DNA of 22,994 bases from a virus: positions 1 through 22,994 of IMG/VR virus record IMGVR_UViG_3300025697_000159. One strand, written 5' to 3'. Below the pieces are notes generated by a model. It worked only from the letters and a program-made list of their open reading frames with translations, ran no database searches and was not told where the DNA came from. Of this stretch, positions 2,619-22,994 are shown piece after piece. Each line of letters begins with the position of its first letter. The stretch's first letter is position 1. The translations under genes were made by a program, and so were the position numbers.

Positions 2619-3032
2619 TTAACTTAAATCCATCTGTTTCAACATCGCCAATACAGTCTTATATAATTTCTTCAAAGCTGTTTTTTGTGCGATTGCTAAA
2701 TTTCCGAATGTATTCTCAACATAAGTGTCAAGTTGAGTATAAGACATCTCGGCAACATCAGCTAATTGCGTCAATGCTTCACTACGATTTGTAGCTACGC
2801 TCTCGACTAATTCTGTATCAGTGCTTGATTCAGCACCTCTAATGGCCTCCAGGACTTTCAGCTTGGTGGGTGTGCCTTCGATTTCCACATAGTTATATCG
2901 ATAAAATGTCTCAGTTCCGCCAGCTTCTATTTCTTTTTCAATTTCCTCTATGTTGTAATTGTAATAATAACTGTTTTTGGAAATCTTCTGTATTGTTGGT
3001 GGTGAAGATTTAGATTCTGCTATTGTTTTCAT
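2619..3032 (-). CDS. Small phage protein downstream of the DGR target (137 aa)
   Basis: Start ATG 3032-3030 has AAGGAG 6 nt upstream. The N-terminus is tyrosine-rich and beta-like (KISKNSYYYNYNIEEIEKEI, FYRYNYVEIEGTPTKLKVLE); the C-terminal half is helical and polar (NRSEALTQLADVAEMSYTQL, IAQKTALKKLYKTVLAMLKQ). The organisation, an N-terminal beta tag and a helical tail in a gene just after the receptor-binding protein, resembles small fibre-assembly or fibre-associated proteins, but no family is recognised. It is separated from the DGR target by an 85-nt gap holding a hairpin. It is not an Avd homologue that I can recognise, although its size and helical C-terminus make that worth a structural comparison. 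Confidence 0.7.
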   Translation of the reverse strand: MKTIAESKSSPPTIQKISKNSYYYNYNIEEIEKEIEAGGTETFYRYNYVEIEGTPTKLKVLEAIRGAESSTDTELVESVATNRSEALTQLADVAEMSYTQLDTYVENTFGNLAIAQKTALKKLYKTVLAMLKQMDLS

Positions 3033-3078
3033 TTATATCTCCTTATCGCTGATTGTAATGGATTATGTATTTTATTTT

Positions 3079-3092
3079 TTGCCAAGAGGCAA
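3079..3092 (-). other. Hairpin just downstream of the DGR variable repeat
   Basis: On the minus strand TTGCC-TCTT-GGCAA can fold into a 5-bp stem with a 4-nt loop, 25 nt past the stop of the DGR target gene. The minus strand continues with A residues, not T, so it is not a Rho-independent terminator for this operon. DGRs such as that of phage BPP-1 need a small hairpin or cruciform downstream of the variable repeat for efficient retrohoming, and the position here fits. The stem is short, so the assignment is tentative. Confidence 0.4.
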
Positions 3093-3117
3093 GGATTATT
3101 ACATTGTATATTCTTTA

Positions 3118-3245
3118 TTAGAAGCAGAGCCGAGACCCGAAATCCACATCATCAGCAGTCGAGGCAGCACTAAGAGCCCAATAAAAGAAGCCCGCAACAT
3201 CCCCATAATAAGCATCCCCGCCGAGTGCAGCCACCCGCCAATCGG
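3118..3245 (-). repeat. Putative DGR variable repeat (VR)
   Basis: The last 41 codons of the lectin-fold gene (residues 381-421) are visibly GC-richer than the surrounding DNA. Many codons end in T or C at positions typically variable in DGR targets (Asp390, Tyr392, Tyr393, Asp395, Val396, Phe399, Tyr401, Ala403, Ser405, Ala406, Ala410, Asp411, Asp412, Asp414), as expected if they came from AAC or AAT codons in a template repeat by adenine-directed mutagenesis. Constant positions (DWR, LGG, GSRLCF) match the family. The template repeat and reverse transcriptase are not found in the window, so the exact VR limits are inferred. Confidence 0.72.
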
Positions 3246-4383
3246 CAGCCTGATAATAGTAATCAGTTATATAAGTTGAACTACTACCACCACCAACCGC
3301 TGAAGGTAAAAACCCTCCTTTTGTTTGTTCCAAGGTTGTTTGCCATCCACCAGCATTTATTAGTGTGATTCCACTCCCTCCGGTATCGGTCAATCTGGTG
3401 TAATTTGTGTCTGTATCATCCGCAAAATCCGTTTCTGTATTAGAAACATACGGAATATTATCGTTGATGTTAAATCCGTCTACCCACTTCCAGAGATTGC
3501 CATAGAAGTTTTCTATTCCTCTATAGCTCATATATGCATTGTTGGTATTCCCTCCAGTATTAGCAGTGGCATTGCCGTCACTATTGGATTTGCCTGTAAC
3601 GCCTATGTAGCTGTCTTTAACCCAAGTTCCTCCACTTAATTCAGTCCTGCCCATACCAATCACGTCTTGGCTGTAAAATGAAGCATACTCAACCAGATAA
3701 AGCAACTGAATGGCACTCATTAGATAGAAATCCTGTTGTCTCCAACCTACACCACGGTTCAACGCAATTGCTCTAAACTCAGCTCTGGTCTCATCCATCA
3801 TAGGTGCAAAACCGCTTACGCTACCAAGTTTATCATTCGCCAAATCAATAGACCCGCCTGCCCAGTTATCAGCTTTTCCTGTTCCGCAGTTAACATAAGC
3901 ACTAGTTCCATCATCATATCCTATACCTTCGTATGCTCCTATGTACCTGTTATCTACCCAGGCACCGTCTTTGTAAAACGCTGGATGCCATTCGTAGCCA
4001 GGAAGTAACACTGAAGATATACTCCAATCATGAATATTGGCAGCGGCATCGTATGAATATTTATAAGCAAACTTTGGTATTTCAACCATTACCTGTCCGT
4101 CTGTTCCATCCAATACAGAGGCCGTTGTTCCATCTTCTTTCAATGTTGAATCTGTGGCATAAAGATAATATTGCACAACTCCAGCATCACTTAAAATACA
4201 CCGTTTCATAGCGGCTTGTATTGGTAGCGATGCATTCCCAGGTGATTCAGCAGCGGTTAAGCCTTTCAAAGCCCCAGTTCTCGCCAAAGTAGGACCAGCT
4301 AAATCTTCATCCCACTGAACACCATAAGCAAATAAGTTTTGTACATCTTCAGCCCATGCAACTGCTTTCCATGTCTCAGCCAA
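3118..4383 (-). CDS. DGR target: C-type-lectin/FGE-fold receptor-binding tail protein
   Basis: This 421-residue protein is a probable receptor-binding fibre tip. Residues 1-20 (AETWKAVAWAEDV) form a virion-docking segment also found at the start of the gene ending at 4689. VMVEIPKFAYKYSY near 98-111, GYEWHPAFYKDGAWVDNRYI near 129-148, and NFYGNLWKWVDGFN mark the formylglycine-enzyme-like C-type lectin fold used by DGR variable proteins. The C-terminus (DWRVAALGGDAYYGDVAGFF then GSRLCF) is a classic variable-repeat ending. I chose the TTG at 4383: AAGGGG sits 8 nt upstream and the resulting MAETWK matches its neighbour, whereas a GTG at 4392 would lie on the ribosome binding site. The start overlaps the preceding stop by 8 nt. 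Confidence 0.88.
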   Translation of the reverse strand: MAETWKAVAWAEDVQNLFAYGVQWDEDLAGPTLARTGALKGLTAAESPGNASLPIQAAMKRCILSDAGVVQYYLYATDSTLKEDGTTASVLDGTDGQVMVEIPKFAYKYSYDAAANIHDWSISSVLLPGYEWHPAFYKDGAWVDNRYIGAYEGIGYDDGTSAYVNCGTGKADNWAGGSIDLANDKLGSVSGFAPMMDETRAEFRAIALNRGVGWRQQDFYLMSAIQLLYLVEYASFYSQDVIGMGRTELSGGTWVKDSYIGVTGKSNSDGNATANTGGNTNNAYMSYRGIENFYGNLWKWVDGFNINDNIPYVSNTETDFADDTDTNYTRLTDTGGSGITLINAGGWQTTLEQTKGGFLPSAVGGGSSSTYITDYYYQAADWRVAALGGDAYYGDVAGFFYWALSAASTADDVDFGSRLCF

Positions 4384-4687
4384 TTGTCCCACCCCTTACA
4401 TTCATAAGCTTTTCAGCGCCTTTAGTCACATAAGCAGTATCAGCCATATTCACACATTGCTTTTTAAGTAAATCCAGCACAAGATTAATATGAGTCAACG
4501 GCATCTGAGCCTGGGCAATCATTTCTTCCAGACGCCTGAACAACAGCACAACTTTAGGTTCAAGCGTCTCCTCATATATCTTAGCAAGTTGCATCATTTT
4601 CTGAACTTGCTGTGCTCTTTGTACTTTTGCAGCTTCTATAGCTTCCTCTGAAGGAACTGAAGGTTTCTCTACCTTTTTCTTAGCCAT
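4376..4687 (-). CDS. Helical hypothetical protein upstream of DGR target (103 aa)
   Basis: I place the start at ATG 4687-4685, 1 nt after the stop of the previous gene, with CAGAGGCGG upstream; longer in-frame starts would lie inside that gene. After a lysine-rich N-terminus (MAKKKVEKPSVPSEEA) the protein is almost entirely predicted helix (AAKVQRAQQVQKMMQLAKIY, PKVVLLFRRLEEMIAQAQMP). It could be a fibre chaperone or a small oligomerisation factor for the lectin-fold protein, whose TTG start overlaps its final 8 nt, so the two are probably translationally coupled. Size and helicity recall DGR accessory proteins, but I see no specific similarity to Avd. Function unknown. Confidence 0.7.
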   Translation of the reverse strand: MAKKKVEKPSVPSEEAIEAAKVQRAQQVQKMMQLAKIYEETLEPKVVLLFRRLEEMIAQAQMPLTHINLVLDLLKKQCVNMADTAYVTKGAEKLMNVRGGTIG

Positions 4688-5667: not shown

Positions 5668-6042
5668 CTAAATATCTGTGCAGACATAAACAGACTTGTC
5701 TGCGTTATTATAAAACATTCCCCCCTCAATCGCTTCAAGAGCAGCTGCAGAAGGAATCAAGACCAACTGTGGAATAGTTGTTACTCCATTAGATCCCAGC
5801 ACAACATTATTCAACCATTCGGTTAACTCGGTATATTCCGCTTCAAGAAGATGATAATACTCATCCGCAGCTCCACCTTGTAAGTCAGGCAATGTATTGT
5901 GAATCTTGATCCCACCTTGTATTGTGACCATGACAGCCTGAGTATCACCGATGGTCACATTGATGTCGCTATGATCCTCGTCCAAGATTATATTGATGTC
6001 AGGACCATCATCAATGACTACACTGAGAGTGATGTCAGACAT
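5668..6042 (-). CDS. Short tail fibre / baseplate-associated protein (124 aa)
   Basis: The ATG (6042-6040) overlaps the stop of the BppU-like gene as TAATG, and AGGAG lies 9 nt upstream. Residues 1-45 are beta-rich with repeated hydrophobic/acid alternation (ITLSVVIDDGPDINIILDED). KIHNTLPDLQGGAADEYYHL is a phrase often seen in phage tail fibre and receptor-binding proteins just before a helical collar. The end, GGMFYNNADKSVYVCTD, resembles the C-terminus of the 250-residue fibre. It is probably a short fibre or adaptor placed on the BppU-like organiser, judged from gene order. Confidence 0.75.
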   Translation of the reverse strand: MSDITLSVVIDDGPDINIILDEDHSDINVTIGDTQAVMVTIQGGIKIHNTLPDLQGGAADEYYHLLEAEYTELTEWLNNVVLGSNGVTTIPQLVLIPSAAALEAIEGGMFYNNADKSVYVCTDI

Positions 6043-6383
6043 TAGGTAATTCTCCTTGTGATATCAGTATGGATAAGAAATCCACCCTTTATGAGGGTTC
6101 GTATGATTCCATCATCTTTTTTTATCTGAAAATCATAATAATACTCTTTAGGGTCCAGATCAGTGTCAATATGGGAAAGCGAAAAATTTGAGATGCCGCC
6201 CTCCGGAGCCGTATGCACTGTTACATCCTTTTTAATTTTAGCCTCGTCATCTGTATCATTAACATTCTCTTTGGCAGTGAAATATATTGTCCAGTCAGTT
6301 ATATCAATGGCAGCTCCATCACCGTCTTTGAATGTGAAGTTAAATGTCTTATCATCGCCTCTGAATACTGAAATTTGATTCAT
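6042..6383 (-). CDS. bppU-like: BppU-like baseplate upper protein (N-terminal domain only)
   Basis: This 113-residue protein resembles the N-terminal domain of BppU, the baseplate organiser that carries receptor-binding proteins in lactococcal-type siphoviruses. Typical signs are an early GDDKTFNFTFKDGDGAAIDI strand pair, YFTAKENVNDTDDEAKIKK, and DTDLDPKEYYYDFQIKKDDG followed by TLIKGGFLIHTDITR. It is limited to this one domain, with no long linker or receptor-binding domain, so later domains may be supplied by the genes after it. Start ATG 6383-6381 has AAGGA 8 nt upstream. The call rests on pattern recognition of the family; context at the tail tip agrees. Confidence 0.8.
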   Translation of the reverse strand: MNQISVFRGDDKTFNFTFKDGDGAAIDITDWTIYFTAKENVNDTDDEAKIKKDVTVHTAPEGGISNFSLSHIDTDLDPKEYYYDFQIKKDDGIIRTLIKGGFLIHTDITRRIT

Positions 6384-6404
6384 GATTATCTTCCTTTCAG
6401 GCTG

Positions 6405-10082: not shown

Positions 10083-11476
10083 TAGCACTCCCAATCCGAT
10101 CTCTGAAGTATATCAACAATCCAGTGGCAGCCGTGTCCAGCTACATAACATCTGCACTCACCACAAGCAGCACCAACTGGTCCTCTATCACAAGGGAGAG
10201 TCCAATTAGAAAGCCAATACCAAGTTCCAGTGCAATTAAAATCACAAGAACTGATAGTATTCGAAACACAGTTAAGTATACCTTTATATTTATAAGGATG
10301 AACTTCTGTTTCACAAAAACAAAAAGTATTTTGAGTACACTTACTACAAATTGTATTATAGGCAGACCAACTTCCTGTAGTACATACCACATAACCAATG
10401 ATCTCACCTCCACACTCAGTAGTGACAGTAATGACTGCTGTACCACAGGCAGTCGAACCGGCACGGAGAGTATTCGCTAAACCTTCTGTCTGCGCATTAT
10501 CAAGCGTCCATCCTGTTCCGCTTACTTCCCAATTATATGGTCCTCCTAATGGATTTTCATCGAGTATTGCTACTGTCCCAGAGTTGTATCGCAATATAGT
10601 CGTGGCACTCGTATCCTCATCCCAGCTAAGCTCACCACAGCATGTTGCAGGATTTATTTTAAAGCCGATGACTACCGGATTGCTCCAGTCCTGATCAGTG
10701 AATCTTATCAAAACACTATCACCATCTTCAAAAGCAGTTGCATTGCAGTCCATATACTCGATAGAAACTCCTGTCAGAGTTGTACCCTGATTGAGATCAA
10801 GAGACTGCTGACTGCTGACTGCTGCTTCTAAGGTAATATTACAGGTGCCAGCATCTTTATCTAAATTAGACATTGTACCAAATCTATAAGTCGGCATCCA
10901 CTTTTGCCAACCGGGCAACATAGCCAAATTATAAAACACTCCAGCAGGAAACCCAGCTATCGCAGGCTCTAACTGACCGTCTCTCGCAGGAGTATAAGCC
11001 GCATTACCACCATGCCCCGGCTGGATCAAGACAGTCCCTCTCTCTCCGGGGACCTCTATCGTGCCTACATTCCCAGATAAGTCTTCTGTTAAATCACCGC
11101 ACCAAGCTGAGACGGTTGGATCTTCCGGCATGTTAGCATTCAGATAATCTATTTTCTTCTGATATGAGGTCTTCTTTAATTCCGATATATTCCTTAAAAG
11201 GGTTTTAGTCCCTAATTCGTCTTGTTTATCTATGATCTCTTGATATTTAGCGTCTTTCGCAGCACCCGGTCCCAGGAGATTCATCTCATTCGTAAGGATT
11301 ACAATCTCTGCATTGATGTCTGTTATCTCACCCTCAGTCTTTGCTATGCTTGCTTCCACTACAGTTATTTGAGCATTAGCATTGGCAATCTGGGCAGTGA
11401 TTTCATCTCTTTTCAGCGTCAACTGAACGTTGTATTGACCGTCTGTACCACCTGATATGATTATTCCCTTGCCCAT
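10082..11476 (-). CDS. Distal tail protein with coiled coil and cysteine-rich C-terminus (464 aa)
   Basis: The ATG (11476-11474) overlaps the stop of the SPRY gene as TAATG. Residues about 25-112 form a long coiled coil (EITAQIANANAQITVVEASI, KKTSYQKKIDYLNANM). A beta-rich middle follows, with GTVLIQPGHGGNAAY and FYNLAMLPGWQKWMPTYRFG. From residue 279 to the end there are 18 cysteines: an Ig-like stretch (GGPYNWEVSGTGWTLDNAQT) and then a dense block (ICSKCTQNTFCFC, CDFNC, GECRCYVAGHGC, final Cys464). The layout suggests a trimeric stalk carrying a disulfide- or metal-stabilised tip that would be exposed on the virion. The family is not recognised with certainty. Confidence 0.78.
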   Translation of the reverse strand: MGKGIIISGGTDGQYNVQLTLKRDEITAQIANANAQITVVEASIAKTEGEITDINAEIVILTNEMNLLGPGAAKDAKYQEIIDKQDELGTKTLLRNISELKKTSYQKKIDYLNANMPEDPTVSAWCGDLTEDLSGNVGTIEVPGERGTVLIQPGHGGNAAYTPARDGQLEPAIAGFPAGVFYNLAMLPGWQKWMPTYRFGTMSNLDKDAGTCNITLEAAVSSQQSLDLNQGTTLTGVSIEYMDCNATAFEDGDSVLIRFTDQDWSNPVVIGFKINPATCCGELSWDEDTSATTILRYNSGTVAILDENPLGGPYNWEVSGTGWTLDNAQTEGLANTLRAGSTACGTAVITVTTECGGEIIGYVVCTTGSWSAYNTICSKCTQNTFCFCETEVHPYKYKGILNCVSNTISSCDFNCTGTWYWLSNWTLPCDRGPVGAACGECRCYVAGHGCHWIVDILQRSDWEC

Positions 11477-13095
11477 TATTCTGAGATTTCCATTTGCTGC
11501 CTTTTAACACTGACAAAATAAGTTACTACATCAACGGTGAATGAATCGCCATTGACCTCAACCGTATCCCCCGGTTTTAAATACATATCAACTTTCGCAA
11601 GCCTGTAATGATATTTTCCACCACTTATGTAATAATATGATGCCCCATCTAAGATCACTTCTTTGGTTACAAAACTTTCTGTTCTATGTCCTGATAATGT
11701 AATCGATTGATTTTTAGCTCCTTCATCAACCCTAATAGTTTCCAAATCAACTATCACGAGTTGTTCTTTATATTGTTCGACACCATCAATCAAATAAGCC
11801 ATTTCAACTATCAAATCACCGTTTGACCGGGCATTTATTTGCGCTGCATATTCTGCTCCTGGAATCACACAAGACAGATATGTAGGATCGCCATCTCTAA
11901 GTCTGCCTTGAAATGATTTCATTGGAATCACAATGTCAGTCGTATCATCATCTTCACCAGTCAAAGTCAGGTAATATCGTTTGGTTGCTTTATATTCATT
12001 TTGTAAAAGCCATTGCGTCCAATTAAAAGAGGCTATCACGTCGGCTAATCCAGCAGATTCAAGGAGTGTCATCAACCAATCAGCCTGAACACCTATCACA
12101 TCATTTAGTCCAACAGCTTCTGCAATTGTCTTATAAAAATAATAGTCTCTATCGACGGTATCATTCAGACCGGCAGTTTCTGCTAATATCTCGACAAAGA
12201 GGTCAGGAATCACTGAATCAGATAATCCGATAGTCTCAGCCAATAATATAGACAATGATGCTTCTACACTCAATGTATCGCTGAGACCTATTGCGTTGAT
12301 TATCTCTAAGACAAGGAGGTCAGGAGTTATCACGCCAGATAATCCAGCAGCTTCAGCTAATGTCTCGACAAGGAGGTCAGGAGTTATCACGCCAGATAAT
12401 CCAGCAGCTTCAGCTAATGTCTCGACAAGGAGGTCAGGAGTTATCACGTCAGATAATCCAGCAGCTTCAGCTAATGTCTCGACAAGGAGGTCAGGAGTTA
12501 TCACGTCAGATAGCCCAGAAGCTTCAGTGATTTCCAATTCATGAACAACGGGAAAATAACTAAATCCTGTTGGTGAAGAATATGTACAATCAGTATTGAA
12601 AAATCGAGCAGTAAAACTATCATTCTTATAATATACAGACACCATCGGAAAAAAGGTACCTGAAATACCATCATAAGCAAAGCCAGTACCAGCAACAGGA
12701 TCACCTGAATTTTGCCACACTCCATTTAAAGAAAAATAAAGTTTCCCGTTATCTAAATCAAGTGCAATTCCTATAATATCATCTTCGACAAAAGAATCCC
12801 CATAACTTAACAAATCGTTGTTATAATCTTTTCTACCATCAGAAAGATAACAGTAGCTATTCGTATCCCATCCCAGTCTATTATTGAGAACAGCACTCGA
12901 TGTACCTATTCCTATGAATTGTACATCAGAAGGTGAATTGTCTATGTGGATTTCCCAATACCATTTACCACTTAATTTAGAGTCAGTAGCCCGTAGACTA
13001 ACATGGCTATTTCCAAGCGTATTGGCAGCAGTCAGATCCCCATTTGTAAGGGTAAAATAATTTGATTTATCTAATGGGTTCCAAGTAACAGCCAT
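11476..13095 (-). CDS. SPRY-domain tail protein with 19-residue tandem repeats (539 aa)
   Basis: Start ATG 13095-13093 follows AAGGATAAATA. Residues about 5-175 are a SPRY/concanavalin-like domain: SKLSGKWYWEIHIDN, IGIGTSSAVLNNRLGWDTNS, DDIIGIALDLDNGKLYFSLN and NGVWQNSGDP are hallmark segments. Residues about 191-355 hold nine copies of a repeat headed by ExxGL, four of them nearly identical (GLSDVITPDLLVETLAEAA). Residues 365-539 form a separate beta-rich domain (RYYLTLTGEDDDTTDIVIPM, VDMYLKPGDTVEVNGDSFTV), likely the part anchored to the tail tip. The gene follows the distal tail proteins, so a display or binding role is likely. SPRY domains bind proteins or peptides elsewhere; the ligand here is unknown. 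Confidence 0.85.
   Translation of the reverse strand: MAVTWNPLDKSNYFTLTNGDLTAANTLGNSHVSLRATDSKLSGKWYWEIHIDNSPSDVQFIGIGTSSAVLNNRLGWDTNSYCYLSDGRKDYNNDLLSYGDSFVEDDIIGIALDLDNGKLYFSLNGVWQNSGDPVAGTGFAYDGISGTFFPMVSVYYKNDSFTARFFNTDCTYSSPTGFSYFPVVHELEITEASGLSDVITPDLLVETLAEAAGLSDVITPDLLVETLAEAAGLSGVITPDLLVETLAEAAGLSGVITPDLLVLEIINAIGLSDTLSVEASLSILLAETIGLSDSVIPDLFVEILAETAGLNDTVDRDYYFYKTIAEAVGLNDVIGVQADWLMTLLESAGLADVIASFNWTQWLLQNEYKATKRYYLTLTGEDDDTTDIVIPMKSFQGRLRDGDPTYLSCVIPGAEYAAQINARSNGDLIVEMAYLIDGVEQYKEQLVIVDLETIRVDEGAKNQSITLSGHRTESFVTKEVILDGASYYYISGGKYHYRLAKVDMYLKPGDTVEVNGDSFTVDVVTYFVSVKRQQMEISE
12311..12538. repeat. Four tandem 57-bp repeats in the SPRY gene
   Basis: Copies lie at 12311-12367, 12368-12424, 12425-12481 and 12482-12538; the first three differ by a single C/T change visible as cacgcc versus cacgtc (Gly versus Asp codon), and the fourth diverges over its last third. 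The unit is a whole number of codons (19), so gain or loss of copies keeps the frame. More degenerate copies continue down to about 12033. Confidence 0.93.
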
Positions 13096-14152: not shown

Positions 14153-16714
14153 TTATATTCCTAACAAAAATTCTGAACCAGCTTCGGTTGCTCTTATTTG
14201 TATTTTTTCTAATATTTGCCACATGACCATTTCCAGTGCAGGCTCCAATCCATCAGCGCTTATGTTAATCAGCGCATCGCCTTTATTAAGTTTAGCAGTT
14301 CGCTTCTCCATATATTTAAGCTGCGCTTCACCGAGTCTCATTTCTAAATCATGTGCTTCTTCTTTTATCTCCATCTCCTCCTTTATATACTTCTCAATAT
14401 CACTCTTGTCAAACATGTCTGCGTTAGCCCACAGGCCATAGAGAGTATTAAGGCTTTCACTTGTGCTTGAGATGGTAGTAGCAAGTCCTTCAAATATCGA
14501 ATCCATTATGTCTGCGTTAGCTTGGGCTGCGGCTATATCTAACTTAGCCTGCCACTCAAACTGGGTCTGCATATTTCCTGCATTAGCTTCTATCCTTGCC
14601 AACTCAGTGTCGATCTCACCTTGCAACTCTATTTGTAATAACTTCTCCGAAGGAATAGCTTCAATTTCTTTTTTTATGTCAGCTGGGGTTGGATCAGTAG
14701 TAGTAAGGATTATCTCTGTTGTTTTATCAGGTGGAGTCACATCATCAAGCAAAGCAGACCAGTCATTAGCCTTGGTTGTTGCTTGCTCTGAATCGATATC
14801 CACTTTTGTATCTATTTCACTCGGGATTTCCTCCATAGCTCCTGCCATTTCTTCTATCCCAGGAACCACATCCCCGAATGCGTATTTAAGCCTCTCTGAA
14901 TTTGCTTCTGCACGATCTACAACATCTGCTCCAAGAAAATCAATGAATGTCGATAATTCTTCTGTTGCATTTTCTGTCCAGTCCGTGAAAGGCAAGAGTC
15001 CAAATATCTCGACTAACGTTCTTATTGATCCAGCTATTATGATTAATGCAAGATCAAATGAAGTCGCCATTGAATCCCATGCAAAACCTATAGTGGTAGC
15101 AATGTCTTTAAAGACTGTCTCTATAAGCTCAGCATGCTGACCGATAGTCATCGCAAAAGCCGCAAATTTGATTCCAAATTCAGTTACTAATTTTGCTAAT
15201 CCCAGTATATTACCAGCTGATTCTTTTTCTGCATCATCAAGCGCATTGAACCCTTTTACCATATTGATGGTTGCTGTGACCATCGGCTCAAAAGCTTCTA
15301 CCATGCCTTTGGTAACGACTATGAGACTCGTCATTGAGTCAAGCACAAACTGAATTGCCTTAGCCAAATCCTCAGGCTTTGTCAGATCTAATTCACTCAT
15401 GAAGGATTTAAACTCATCCCCTAAACTTCCAAAAGCATCAAGGAATTCATCAAAATCAACTTCCTCAAACGCTTCAGGCATCGCTCCTGCTATTCCTCTG
15501 AGATAATCACCAAACGAACTACTGAACTCATTTAGTGCATCAAACACTGGGCTAAACGTCCCAGAAGAAACGATCCCCTGCAAGGCCAGCTCAATCTCTG
15601 TAGCACCATCAATGGCTTCCACGGTTGCTACACGGAATTGGTCTCCGACAATAATACCGAGATTCTCGAACCCTACCTGAAATCTATTAACAGCAACTTC
15701 AGCACTCTCCAATCTGGCTGCGACTTCTAATGCAGCTGATCCGGCTGCACCCATTGCAACCGCTGTGACTTCAGTTGAGAGCGCTAATCCGTTGAATACT
15801 TCGACCATCCTACCAGCTTGATGGATACCAACGAGTTGCTGAGCAAGAAATAATTTATCACTTTCTTCCGCAGTATTAAAGGCAGTAGCTACATCAAAGA
15901 GTATATCTTTACCGGATCGTAACTCCCCATTTGCGTCTTTTTGCGACACTCCAATCGATGCAAGGGCTTCAGCAACAGGCTTGGAATCATCAATTAATTT
16001 CAATAAACCTGTTTTTAATGCGATTGCAGCTTCACCACCTGAACGAAATACCTCAATCACTGGAGTTAAAACACCAGCAGTTTCTTCAAAAGTAAATCCC
16101 ATCTTATCTGCAATAGGAGAGAGTGTAGCCATACCTATCGCAAGTTGTTCGACATCAGTCGCATAATTATTCGATACTTCATTCAAGATATCGACTAATC
16201 TTGCAGCTTCTGACGCTGGTTCTTTAAATCCTTTTAATGTGGCTATGAGAAGCTCACTTGACGTAGACGCATCTATCGACCCGGCTACGACCAAATCCAT
16301 GGCATTCTTAGTCAGAGTTAGAGACTCTTCAACGGTAAATCCAGCTTGCTTAAAATTAGCTGTACTCAACAAAATTGCAGAACTGGTTTCACCATATGTA
16401 GTCGATAGATCAAGAGCAGCCTTCTGCGCATCACCGAGCAAGGCTATTTCATCACCTATAACTTTTTGAAGCTCAATTGTGGCAGCTTCAAATTCAGCGG
16501 ATTTAGCAAAGGCATAGACTAATCCCCCAGCAGCAACTGCCATTAAAGCAGCATCGACTTTTAATATATCATCAGCAAATCCTGCTAACGGTTCAGCAAT
16601 AGCCTCAATCCTGTTCCCAAGATCAGACATATTCCCGGATACTGAATCAATGGTGCCACTCACTTCATCCGTTCCAACAAAGACTATATCTATAATTCTT
16701 GAGACATTAGACAA
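14153..16714 (-). CDS. Tail tape measure protein (853 aa)
   Basis: The long, mostly helical, alanine-rich protein with an N-terminal TP901-like core (residues about 70-330: FKQAGFTVEESLTLTKNAMD, ATLKGFKEPASEAARLVDIL, GMATLSPIADKMGFTFEETA, FRSGGEAAIALKTGLLKLID) is the tape measure, which sets tail length and is ejected during infection. Hydrophobic stretches are seen near residues 55-68 and 555-580 (LALIIIAGSIRTLVEIFGLL). I start at TTG 16714, with AAGGA 8 nt upstream and 2 nt after the chaperone extension's stop. At about 1.5 angstrom per residue, a general rule for these proteins, the tail would be roughly 130 nm. Confidence 0.95.
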   Translation of the reverse strand: MSNVSRIIDIVFVGTDEVSGTIDSVSGNMSDLGNRIEAIAEPLAGFADDILKVDAALMAVAAGGLVYAFAKSAEFEAATIELQKVIGDEIALLGDAQKAALDLSTTYGETSSAILLSTANFKQAGFTVEESLTLTKNAMDLVVAGSIDASTSSELLIATLKGFKEPASEAARLVDILNEVSNNYATDVEQLAIGMATLSPIADKMGFTFEETAGVLTPVIEVFRSGGEAAIALKTGLLKLIDDSKPVAEALASIGVSQKDANGELRSGKDILFDVATAFNTAEESDKLFLAQQLVGIHQAGRMVEVFNGLALSTEVTAVAMGAAGSAALEVAARLESAEVAVNRFQVGFENLGIIVGDQFRVATVEAIDGATEIELALQGIVSSGTFSPVFDALNEFSSSFGDYLRGIAGAMPEAFEEVDFDEFLDAFGSLGDEFKSFMSELDLTKPEDLAKAIQFVLDSMTSLIVVTKGMVEAFEPMVTATINMVKGFNALDDAEKESAGNILGLAKLVTEFGIKFAAFAMTIGQHAELIETVFKDIATTIGFAWDSMATSFDLALIIIAGSIRTLVEIFGLLPFTDWTENATEELSTFIDFLGADVVDRAEANSERLKYAFGDVVPGIEEMAGAMEEIPSEIDTKVDIDSEQATTKANDWSALLDDVTPPDKTTEIILTTTDPTPADIKKEIEAIPSEKLLQIELQGEIDTELARIEANAGNMQTQFEWQAKLDIAAAQANADIMDSIFEGLATTISSTSESLNTLYGLWANADMFDKSDIEKYIKEEMEIKEEAHDLEMRLGEAQLKYMEKRTAKLNKGDALINISADGLEPALEMVMWQILEKIQIRATEAGSEFLLGI

Positions 16715-18368: not shown

Positions 18369-20483
18369 TTAGTTTGTGCTGACTCCAATCGGTTCTAATA
18401 GTTGCTTAACTTCTTCAGCAGCAATGGCTTGATCTGCTTCTTGCAAAAACCCTATTGATTCTTTTAATTTACTCAAGCAATCAACACCATCACCTAATAA
18501 ATATGCCGTCATATGCTTAAGAACAAAATATAAGCTATCCGGCTTCTGAGAGAATATGAAACGGCTACCTTTTGCATCTGGTCGCTTTGTAAACATCTCA
18601 TATTGCTTCAGATAATTCCGTGCTCCCTCGAGTAGCATCTGGCCATTGCCTGTAACTACTCCGAACTCAGTTGTGACATAAGATATATCTAAGTCATCAG
18701 GTAATATTCTCTGCGCTTCTATCAACCATTTGTAAGCTCTTCCATAATTCTTTTGCTCCAGATATAACCGGATGATAGAATAGTATACGGTCTCATTGAA
18801 TCCATTACACAGAGACTTGCTCTCAAGATATTTCTCACCATAGCTGATCGCCTTGCTATAATCCTCAATCGTTCCATAAAACTGCATAAGATAGAAAAGC
18901 AGTTCATAGTCTTCAGGATCTTTTATCAGCGCTTTTTTTAACAATGTCCCTGTGCGCTTAGTCTTCTTCTTAGATTCTTTCTTCGAGATTTGATAATGCG
19001 ATCCATGATGAATAATTGTAACATCGTTATACAGGACAGCTCCAAATTTCTCAGCACCTTCATAGATCGGTATATTGTGGACTGCTCTACGATATTTGAT
19101 TTTGCCATTTCTAAAAATTCGTGATGCATTAAATTGAGTCCCTGATTCCTGACATACATCCTGAAGCTTAACTGACACCCCGTTATATTCAGGACTTAGC
19201 CTCGCTAATGTCTTCTTCAACCCTTCTTTATTACCTGTCAACTCTTCATCAGCATCTATCTGCAATAGCCAATCACCTGTTGAATGACGAATAACTTGAT
19301 TTCTATGAAGCGAAAAGTCATCCTTCCACGGATGCCTGTGAACCTTAGCACCGTATGACTTAGCTATCTTGATGCTTTTATCTGTTGACCCGGTATCGAC
19401 AATCACTATCTCGTCAGCGATGTCCTTAATAGATTCAAGACACCTACCTATGTGTTTTTCCTCATTTCTCATCATCATCGTAACCGACAACCTTATAGGT
19501 TTCACAAGGTTATCAGGCATGAATGTAGATACAGGAGCTGCATGACTTTTGATGACCGCCTCTATCTGCCCAATTTTATCTGAAAAAGAATAATAAGAAG
19601 TTATGTAGTTTCTATATTCAACCGGATCATACTCTTCAGACAAAATCATGCTGCAAAATTCAGAAACCTTGGACCACAAATATTTGATAGGGTATATTGT
19701 ATCAGCACCTACAAAATTATGAATAACTGGTTTCAAACCCATTGCCATGGCTTCCATGATTCCTTTGCCTTGGCTTTCCAGAACTGAAGAGCAAACGATG
19801 TGACTCTTATCTTCCAACCATTCCTCCGGCTTCTCTATCCAACCATGGAATTTGATTCGTCCAGCAAGCAATGGATTTTGCTCTTGCATCTGCTTGAGAT
19901 AGAGAGCGTATCGCTCCTCTTGAAATGCACCTCCGACATGGAGTGTATAATCAGGCTGAATGCTCAATAGCTCTGCAAAGGCTGTGAACAATAACACAGG
20001 CGCTTTCTTAAAATTGAGAAAACCAAGATATGCGAGGTCCTTCCCCTTTTTAACCCGTGACAGCGCAAATCTATCAGTGTCAATCCCGTTCGGTATCATA
20101 TGAATTCGATCAACGTTCTTCTCAATACAAGGATATTTCTGGAGGACTATGTCCTTAATGTGATCGGCAACAAATATCAAATCTGTAATCGCTGACCACT
20201 TAATATAATCGAGATATGGTGTGAATGCCTCATAGCTGTGAAGCCGTAATATCACCTGCTTCTGGTACAGCAACTGCTCAAATCGTGTGACATTGATCGC
20301 TGAATTATCAGCCCATTCGATCCAAATTATGTCAGCCCATTTTACAGCGTTAAATGTCTGCTCAAGATCATTGGTCACACAGACCTTCGTCTCATAGTTC
20401 GCCTTGAAATAATCTGAGATTTCGGATAAATGGTTGTCATTACCGGGTGAACATATAATTGCTACTTTTTTCAAATTATACAC
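18369..20483 (-). CDS. Two-domain glycosyltransferase (GT-B GT4-like + GT-A GT2-like, 704 aa)
   Basis: Residues 1-315 are a GT-B enzyme of GT4 type: IPNGIDTDRF at 130-139, LAYLGFLNFKKAP at 150-162, LHVGGAF, and an E-x7-E motif (Glu236...Glu244 in ESQGKGIMEAMAMG). Residues 331-560 are a GT-A enzyme of GT2 type: SVTMMMRNEEKHIGRCLESI, VDTGSTDKS with Asp363, and the DxD motif QIDADEEL (Asp410, Asp412). Residues about 500-690 look like TPR-type helical repeats (EDYELLFYLMQFYGTIEDYS). Together they could add two sugars in sequence. No membrane segment is seen, so it acts in the cytoplasm. The GTG start overlaps the preceding stop by 8 nt and has a weak ribosome binding site, suggesting coupled translation. 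Confidence 0.92.
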   Translation of the reverse strand: MYNLKKVAIICSPGNDNHLSEISDYFKANYETKVCVTNDLEQTFNAVKWADIIWIEWADNSAINVTRFEQLLYQKQVILRLHSYEAFTPYLDYIKWSAITDLIFVADHIKDIVLQKYPCIEKNVDRIHMIPNGIDTDRFALSRVKKGKDLAYLGFLNFKKAPVLLFTAFAELLSIQPDYTLHVGGAFQEERYALYLKQMQEQNPLLAGRIKFHGWIEKPEEWLEDKSHIVCSSVLESQGKGIMEAMAMGLKPVIHNFVGADTIYPIKYLWSKVSEFCSMILSEEYDPVEYRNYITSYYSFSDKIGQIEAVIKSHAAPVSTFMPDNLVKPIRLSVTMMMRNEEKHIGRCLESIKDIADEIVIVDTGSTDKSIKIAKSYGAKVHRHPWKDDFSLHRNQVIRHSTGDWLLQIDADEELTGNKEGLKKTLARLSPEYNGVSVKLQDVCQESGTQFNASRIFRNGKIKYRRAVHNIPIYEGAEKFGAVLYNDVTIIHHGSHYQISKKESKKKTKRTGTLLKKALIKDPEDYELLFYLMQFYGTIEDYSKAISYGEKYLESKSLCNGFNETVYYSIIRLYLEQKNYGRAYKWLIEAQRILPDDLDISYVTTEFGVVTGNGQMLLEGARNYLKQYEMFTKRPDAKGSRFIFSQKPDSLYFVLKHMTAYLLGDGVDCLSKLKESIGFLQEADQAIAAEEVKQLLEPIGVSTN

Positions 20484-22530: not shown

Positions 22531-22994
22531 TCATCCCGATCTAAAATTAGGAGAAAATTCTCCATGGTATTTCATTTCAGCTTGGCGTCTGGCTTCTGCT
22601 GCGTCTTGCAAATCTGCAAACCTACCAAGGAAAATTTCTTTACCATCAACAACTATACGAGCACGAAATTTATTTTTATTTTTGTCCCAACCCACACCAA
22701 CAATACCACTATTGTTATCTGATCGAATGCCTTGATTTATCGCATTCTGTGAATAAGTCACTTCACGCAAATTATTAGATAAATTATTCAGCTTAATCCG
22801 ATCCCTGTGATCAAACATATATTTGTGCTCAAAATCGCCTTTTACAAAATTAGATAAATTCAGCTTCTCACCACCATGGATCGTATAAACATATCCACAT
22901 TTATTATGCCATTTATGTTTTTTAATCTCATTAAGATTTTCTCCATCAAAGAAAGTCTCAGCAATCACTTTACCGTTTTTATTATACAGTTCCA
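22531..22994 (-). CDS. HNH/AP2 homing endonuclease (N-terminus beyond the window)
   Basis: The frame is open to the right edge, so the start is outside; the visible reading begins ELYNKNGKVIAETFFDGENL. GTG 22968 could be mistaken for a start but lies mid-domain. Residues downstream show YMFDHRDRIKLNNLSNNLRE, the Asp-His...Asn-Asn core of an HNH_3-type nuclease, and then SGIVGVGWDKNKNKFRARIV with IFLGRFADLQDAAEARRQAE, a typical AP2 DNA-binding domain. The histidine usually found in the first strand (LHR) appears as LSN, so activity may be altered. Such genes are mobile and are often free-standing in phage genomes. It ends 13 nt before the acidic protein gene. Confidence 0.88.
   Translation of the reverse strand, partial: ELYNKNGKVIAETFFDGENLNEIKKHKWHNKCGYVYTIHGGEKLNLSNFVKGDFEHKYMFDHRDRIKLNNLSNNLREVTYSQNAINQGIRSDNNSGIVGVGWDKNKNKFRARIVVDGKEIFLGRFADLQDAAEARRQAEMKYHGEFSPNFRSG

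Follow-up and report, generated by a model that had tools for sequence, protein, structure and literature searches.

The locus considered here raises the question of how a phage tail gene can end in a putative variable repeat (VR) of a diversity-generating retroelement (DGR) in a record that contains neither the reverse transcriptase (RT) nor the template repeat (TR) of such an element. The viral record IMGVR_UViG_3300025697_000159 is an entire contig of 22,994 bp, and it was analysed at its full length (the window). The contig is classed as linear by IMG/VR, so the record may be a fragment. The minus strand encodes a tail module, including a tail terminator-like gene, a tape measure gene (14153-16714), further structural genes and a 424-aa protein, referred to below as the variable protein. 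The structural module also contains GIY-YIG/NUMOD3 and HNH/AP2 homing-endonuclease-like genes (1375-2019 and 22531-22992). A 704-aa protein encoded among the tail genes (18369-20483) was judged by eye to be a candidate glycosyltransferase, and the tail gene encoding a 539-aa product (11476-13095) contains 57-nt tandem repeats at 12310-12527.

The variable protein gene (3118..4392, minus strand; start codon uncertain) encodes a predicted C-type-lectin-fold phage tail protein, the C-terminus of which reads DWRVAALGGDAYYGDVAGFFYWALSAASTADDVDFGSRLCF, with the stop codon at 3118. The protein matches phrog_5302, annotated as 'tail protein' (E 2.3e-86). The search against Pfam gave no family above the cut-off for this protein, for the 137-aa protein encoded next to it, or for a 106-aa ORF of the related locus L028. 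The only PDB sequence match, obtained with a sequence profile, was the DGR protein 5VF4 (E 0.0013). The AlphaFold model (pLDDT 86.9) predicts the C-type-lectin fold of known DGR targets, and the top Foldseek matches of this model were TaqVP (5VF4, E 1e-10) and Mtd (1YU0, E 1e-3). TaqVP of Thermus aquaticus and Mtd of the Bordetella phage BPP-1 share both this fold and a C-terminal VR with the window protein, but they are only about 14-16% identical to it, and both originate from complete DGRs (PMC6328139). The neighbouring 137-aa gene (2619..3032, minus strand) has the corresponding place in relatives, behind the variable gene or, where there is one, behind the cassette, and its product is 61% identical to that of L028, 58-60% to those of L001 and L002 and 43% to that of L012.

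The first-pass annotation had assigned positions 3118-3245 to the variable repeat of a DGR, describing a GC-rich C-terminal island with a run of NNT/NNC codons at positions variable in known DGR targets. Homology with the TRs of relatives, which spans about 3121-3240 (minus strand, 40 codons), is in good agreement with these coordinates, and the composition is as described. The last 123 coding nucleotides of the gene have a GC content of 56.1%, reached by 36 of the 22,626 other 123-nt segments of the record, and the coding strand has far more T (42) than A (12), an extreme AT skew that none of the other segments reaches. Eleven codons of the VR fall at columns that read AAY in the relatives' TRs. 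These columns were set from the TRs of 14 relatives, and the window sequence was not used; 10 of the 11 window codons at them end in T.

The codon positions affected by substitutions carry a further signature. In comparison with L085, the nearest relative (79% identical), the 11 columns contain 8, 9 and 1 differences at positions 1, 2 and 3, versus 17, 17 and 56 differences in 129 flanking codons. The contrast between the first and second positions and the third one (17 + 1 vs 34 + 56 in the flank) corresponds to an odds ratio of 28 with p = 8.5e-6, where the p-values for VR columns assume independent substitutions. The outcome was similar for the comparisons of the window with L001 and with L002. 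Ordinary evolution yields the opposite pattern. As the window has no TR of its own, the concentration of substitutions at TR adenines was read from the comparisons with L085, L001 and L002, and it was found there. The 3' end of the VR, CGGCTCTGCTTCTAA, the place of a possible initiation of mutagenic homing element (IMH), is identical in the intact loci L028 and L036. The assignment of 3121..3240 to a DGR VR is supported by homology to the relatives' TRs, by the codon-position signature and by the fold match with TaqVP and Mtd.

A complete functional DGR requires both an RT and a TR, and the record contains neither, as the first-pass annotation had noted. No RT was detected in the 22,994-bp record with the RVT_1 profile or the DGR-RT profile A2, and no TR was found on either of its strands. 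The template-copy search that had been proposed was run on the window and on the whole records of relatives, on both strands and with non-adenine mismatches counted; in cassette-less records it yielded only chance A-rich matches. No TR fitting the window VR was found, the best candidate having 16 non-A mismatches of 99. Likewise, no RT or TR was found in the assembled records of L085 (44 kb), L003 (69 kb), L001 (29 kb), L008 (26.6 kb) and L040 (38 kb), the last of which is probably complete because it has terminal repeats of about 127 nt. When IMG/VR was scanned for a degenerate VR/TR pattern, the one contig returned was unrelated; a scan for the exact 3' end of the VR returned the L085 contig alone.

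The relatives, in contrast to the window, include many loci with intact cassettes. The searches for relatives, from which near-identical records may be missing, yielded 18 loci in the first round and 80 viral and 7 genomic loci in the second. In many relatives, a near-copy of the VR, the TR, is located 30-200 nt downstream of the VR. The mismatches between TR and VR over 90 nt typically comprise 13-23 at adenines of the TR and 0-2 elsewhere, and the RT encoded after the TR possesses the DGR motif IGNxxSQ together with YxDD. L028, a contig of a Deltaproteobacteria MAG, and the IMG/VR loci L036-L038, L007, L012 and L071 encode a homologous variable protein with the same VR columns as the window. 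These loci also contain a TR, an RT-17 spacer RNA and an intact DGR RT (IGNYLSQ, YCDD), whereas the window contains only remnants. The aligned TRs of L036, L037 and L038, which originate from three metagenomes, are identical, and 369 nt of flank contain 0-1 differences, but the VRs at the ends of their variable genes (positions 1974, 7136 and 2086, respectively) differ at 8-11 of the 11 variable codons. This indicates that the family is active now or was active very recently.

Some details of the cassettes in relatives deserve mention. In L007 and L012, TAG stands in the TR opposite the conserved Trp codon (TGG) of the VR, and the protein would be truncated if the copy were left unmutated. Many adenines of these TRs also stand at codons whose G stays conserved in the VRs. 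The variable genes of L071 and L073, which belong to the same metagenome, differ at 10 of 360 flanking nucleotides, and their VRs differ at 21 TR-adenine sites. L071 has both TR and RT, L073 has neither, and the similarity of the two loci stops 14 nt past the variable gene. It seems that the variable gene moves without its cassette. In L028, a 106-aa ORF (12593-12913), to which a fragment in L035 is likely homologous, overlaps the stop codon of the RT gene and possibly encodes an accessory DGR protein.

The gene order of L028 is the same as that of the window, with identities of 54% for the tape measure protein, 48% for two more tail genes, 72% for the variable gene and 61% for the 137-aa gene. 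Between the variable gene and the 137-aa gene, L028 contains a TR, an RT gene and the 106-aa ORF (11237-12926, about 1.69 kb), and the window contains a scar of 85 nt (3033..3117, minus strand). Part of this scar, AATGTAATAATCCTTGCCTCTTGGCAAAAAATAAA (3071..3105, minus strand), is identical at 33 of 35 positions to the element located behind the TR of L071, with a Smith-Waterman score of 60 against 32 for the best of 200 shuffles, and it includes the hairpin TTGCC-TCTT-GGCAA at about 3078-3092. This remnant represents the 5' part of the Rfam RT-17 RNA (RF03020), which was matched by cmscan at 3023-3096 (36.5 bits, E 1.4e-5 in a 351-base search). The 5' hairpin and the A-rich tail of the RNA family are present at 3071-3105, but its middle stem-loops are missing, and because of this the match does not reach the gathering score of 40.4, which ten intact cassettes pass.

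The position of the spacer element is informative. In 25 relatives, its core motif is located 164-297 nt past the VR end, after the TR, and never adjoins the VR. In the window, the core motif (3077-3091) lies 29 nt from the VR end, which is also its offset from the TR end in L071; in other relatives, the offset from the TR end is 21-40 nt. The VR thus now carries the downstream flank of the TR, as expected from a collapse of VR and TR. An interpretation of the hairpin after the VR as a homing hairpin or a terminator was rejected, since the RT-17 match and the offset data identify it as the TR-side spacer element.

The other part of the scar resembles the end of an RT gene. The sequence 3029..3079 (minus strand) encodes KNKIHNPLQSAIRRYK followed by a TGA stop codon; within the sequence ATGA, this stop codon overlaps the start codon of the next gene. 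The RTs of relatives end similarly, with QNKIHNPLPSRII at the C-terminus in L007, VKNRVHNPLYN and further residues in L071, and ENKLHNPMGVF at the C-terminus in L041. The peptide score of 47 was not attained by any of 500 shuffles (maximum 41), and the nucleotide match alone is modest, being equalled by 15 of 500 shuffles. The spacer and RT remnants overlap within an A-rich stretch, which is plausibly the deletion junction. The presence of both remnants within 85 nt indicates that a local cassette existed and was then deleted in place, and this deletion accounts for the machinery missing from the window. The scars next to the VR had escaped the first-pass annotation, which left the machinery to lie to the left of the contig, elsewhere in the genome or to be absent. 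This can now be narrowed insofar as the local cassette is gone, although a second cassette might exist outside the contig.

The phylogenetic analysis of the variable protein with the VR excluded grouped the window (98/99 support) with four cassette-less loci and the cassette-bearing L028. In the 38-row tree, the cassette state changes at least seven times on well-supported branches, and some of the absences on it may reflect contig ends. Several loci retain parts of the cassette. In L001, the TR leader and head are kept directly before the 137-aa gene. In L035, the TR is kept, a fragment similar to the 106-aa ORF comes immediately after it, and no RT is present in 50 kb. In L059 (11518-12102), the RT is reduced to about 60 N-terminal residues; next comes an ORF whose end resembles that of the 106-aa ORF, and then a homologue of the 137-aa gene. 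This deletion is an independent event. The cultured Synechococcus phage S-EIV1 (L105), with a complete 79-kb genome, has a decayed DGR at 5921-6400, in which the TR is intact and the RT match breaks off after about 28 residues. Among the cassette-less loci, no traces of TR/spacer or RT that exceeded the shuffles were found in L002, L005, L008, L040 and L003, and in L085 and L073 such traces are at most borderline. The whole range occurs within the family: intact and evidently active cassettes (L036-L038), several partial deletions that arose independently, and losses without a trace.

The best explanation, with a probability of about 0.87, takes the variable gene for the receptor-binding-type target in a phage DGR that lost its cassette by deletion in place. 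The ancestral order would have been the variable gene with its VR, the TR, the spacer RNA element, the RT, perhaps a small ORF and the 137-aa gene, as in L028. The present VR would have been written by mutagenic retrohoming, in which the TR is copied with errors at adenines; the process is evident in relatives and presumed for the window. In one loss, VR and TR would have collapsed, probably because the two direct repeats recombined, placing the 3' flank of the TR behind the VR. In the other, the body of the RT gene would have been removed from the spacer hairpin to the last RT codons via the A-rich stretch common to both ends. The two losses are read from the remnants; their sequence in time and the route of recombination are inferred. 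The VR is now probably frozen as a fixed variant, unless a cassette elsewhere serves the phage. Against this explanation stand the fragmentary nature of the 23-kb contig, owing to which a second TR and RT may be located elsewhere in the genome, the modest nucleotide match of the RT remnant and the RT-17 score, which is low as a truncated element would lead one to expect.

If such a remote RT and TR still rewrote the VR, the local remnants would derive from an earlier redundant cassette. The VRs of the window and L085 differ at 10 of 11 variable codons, nearly all at positions 1 and 2, which implies that diversification went on after or close to the split of the two phages; the VR has no stop codon and no visible decay, and remote targets have been described for Treponema denticola (PMC4891356). 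However, the window and the whole records of L085, L003, L001, L008 and L040 are devoid of RT and TR, and the remnants demonstrate that a local cassette has gone, so this scenario is considered unlikely. Service in trans, where a co-infecting phage or a prophage with a matching TR supplies the TR-RNA and the RT, is most improbable. Compared with the TR of L071, the VR of L073, a locus without a cassette, has 4 of 83 non-adenine mismatches, a fit as good as that of the VR of L071 itself, but transfer of the variable gene alone explains this pair equally well. L073 was dropped as proof of trans-acting mutagenesis because it resembles L071 in the variable gene alone. Nor does any TR found fit the window VR, as the best candidate mentioned above indicates. 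It is very unlikely, too, that the VR fused to the TR-side spacer hairpin is a live target rewritten in trans with an RT and a TR that the host or a second phage supplies; if this were true, a phage could shed its cassette yet still be diversified.

It is also conceivable that the gene was never a DGR target and encodes a lectin-fold tail protein of the usual kind, GC-rich at its C-terminus and subject only to ordinary diversifying selection. Tail receptor-binding proteins evolve fast, which fits this proposal. The conservation of third codon positions alongside changes in the first and second ones, the position-by-position homology to VRs accompanied by TRs in many relatives, and the cassette remnants adjoining the gene do not; the proposal is already strongly disfavoured, and its probability is close to negligible.

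Incomplete and lost cassettes are known from other DGRs as well. In crAss-like phages, 66 of 91 genomes contain incomplete DGR cassettes with truncated target or RT genes, and VRs were found in 80 and TRs in only 30 (PMC7290462); these phages represent another group, and the window still shows legible remnants from either end of the segment that was lost. Isolates of T. denticola without RT and TR retain leftover target genes (PMC4891356), and the target gene outlives the core DGR as in the window, but this is a cellular DGR and not a phage tail gene. In view of these examples, the window represents a further decayed phage DGR of a kind already known, and its scars are unusually readable. DGR surveys that start from the reverse transcriptase (PMC8144416, PMC6199706) are blind to target genes whose cassette is gone. 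Since a single tail-gene family spans the range from intact cassettes to traceless loss, it can be asked when freezing a receptor-binding variant benefits the phage.
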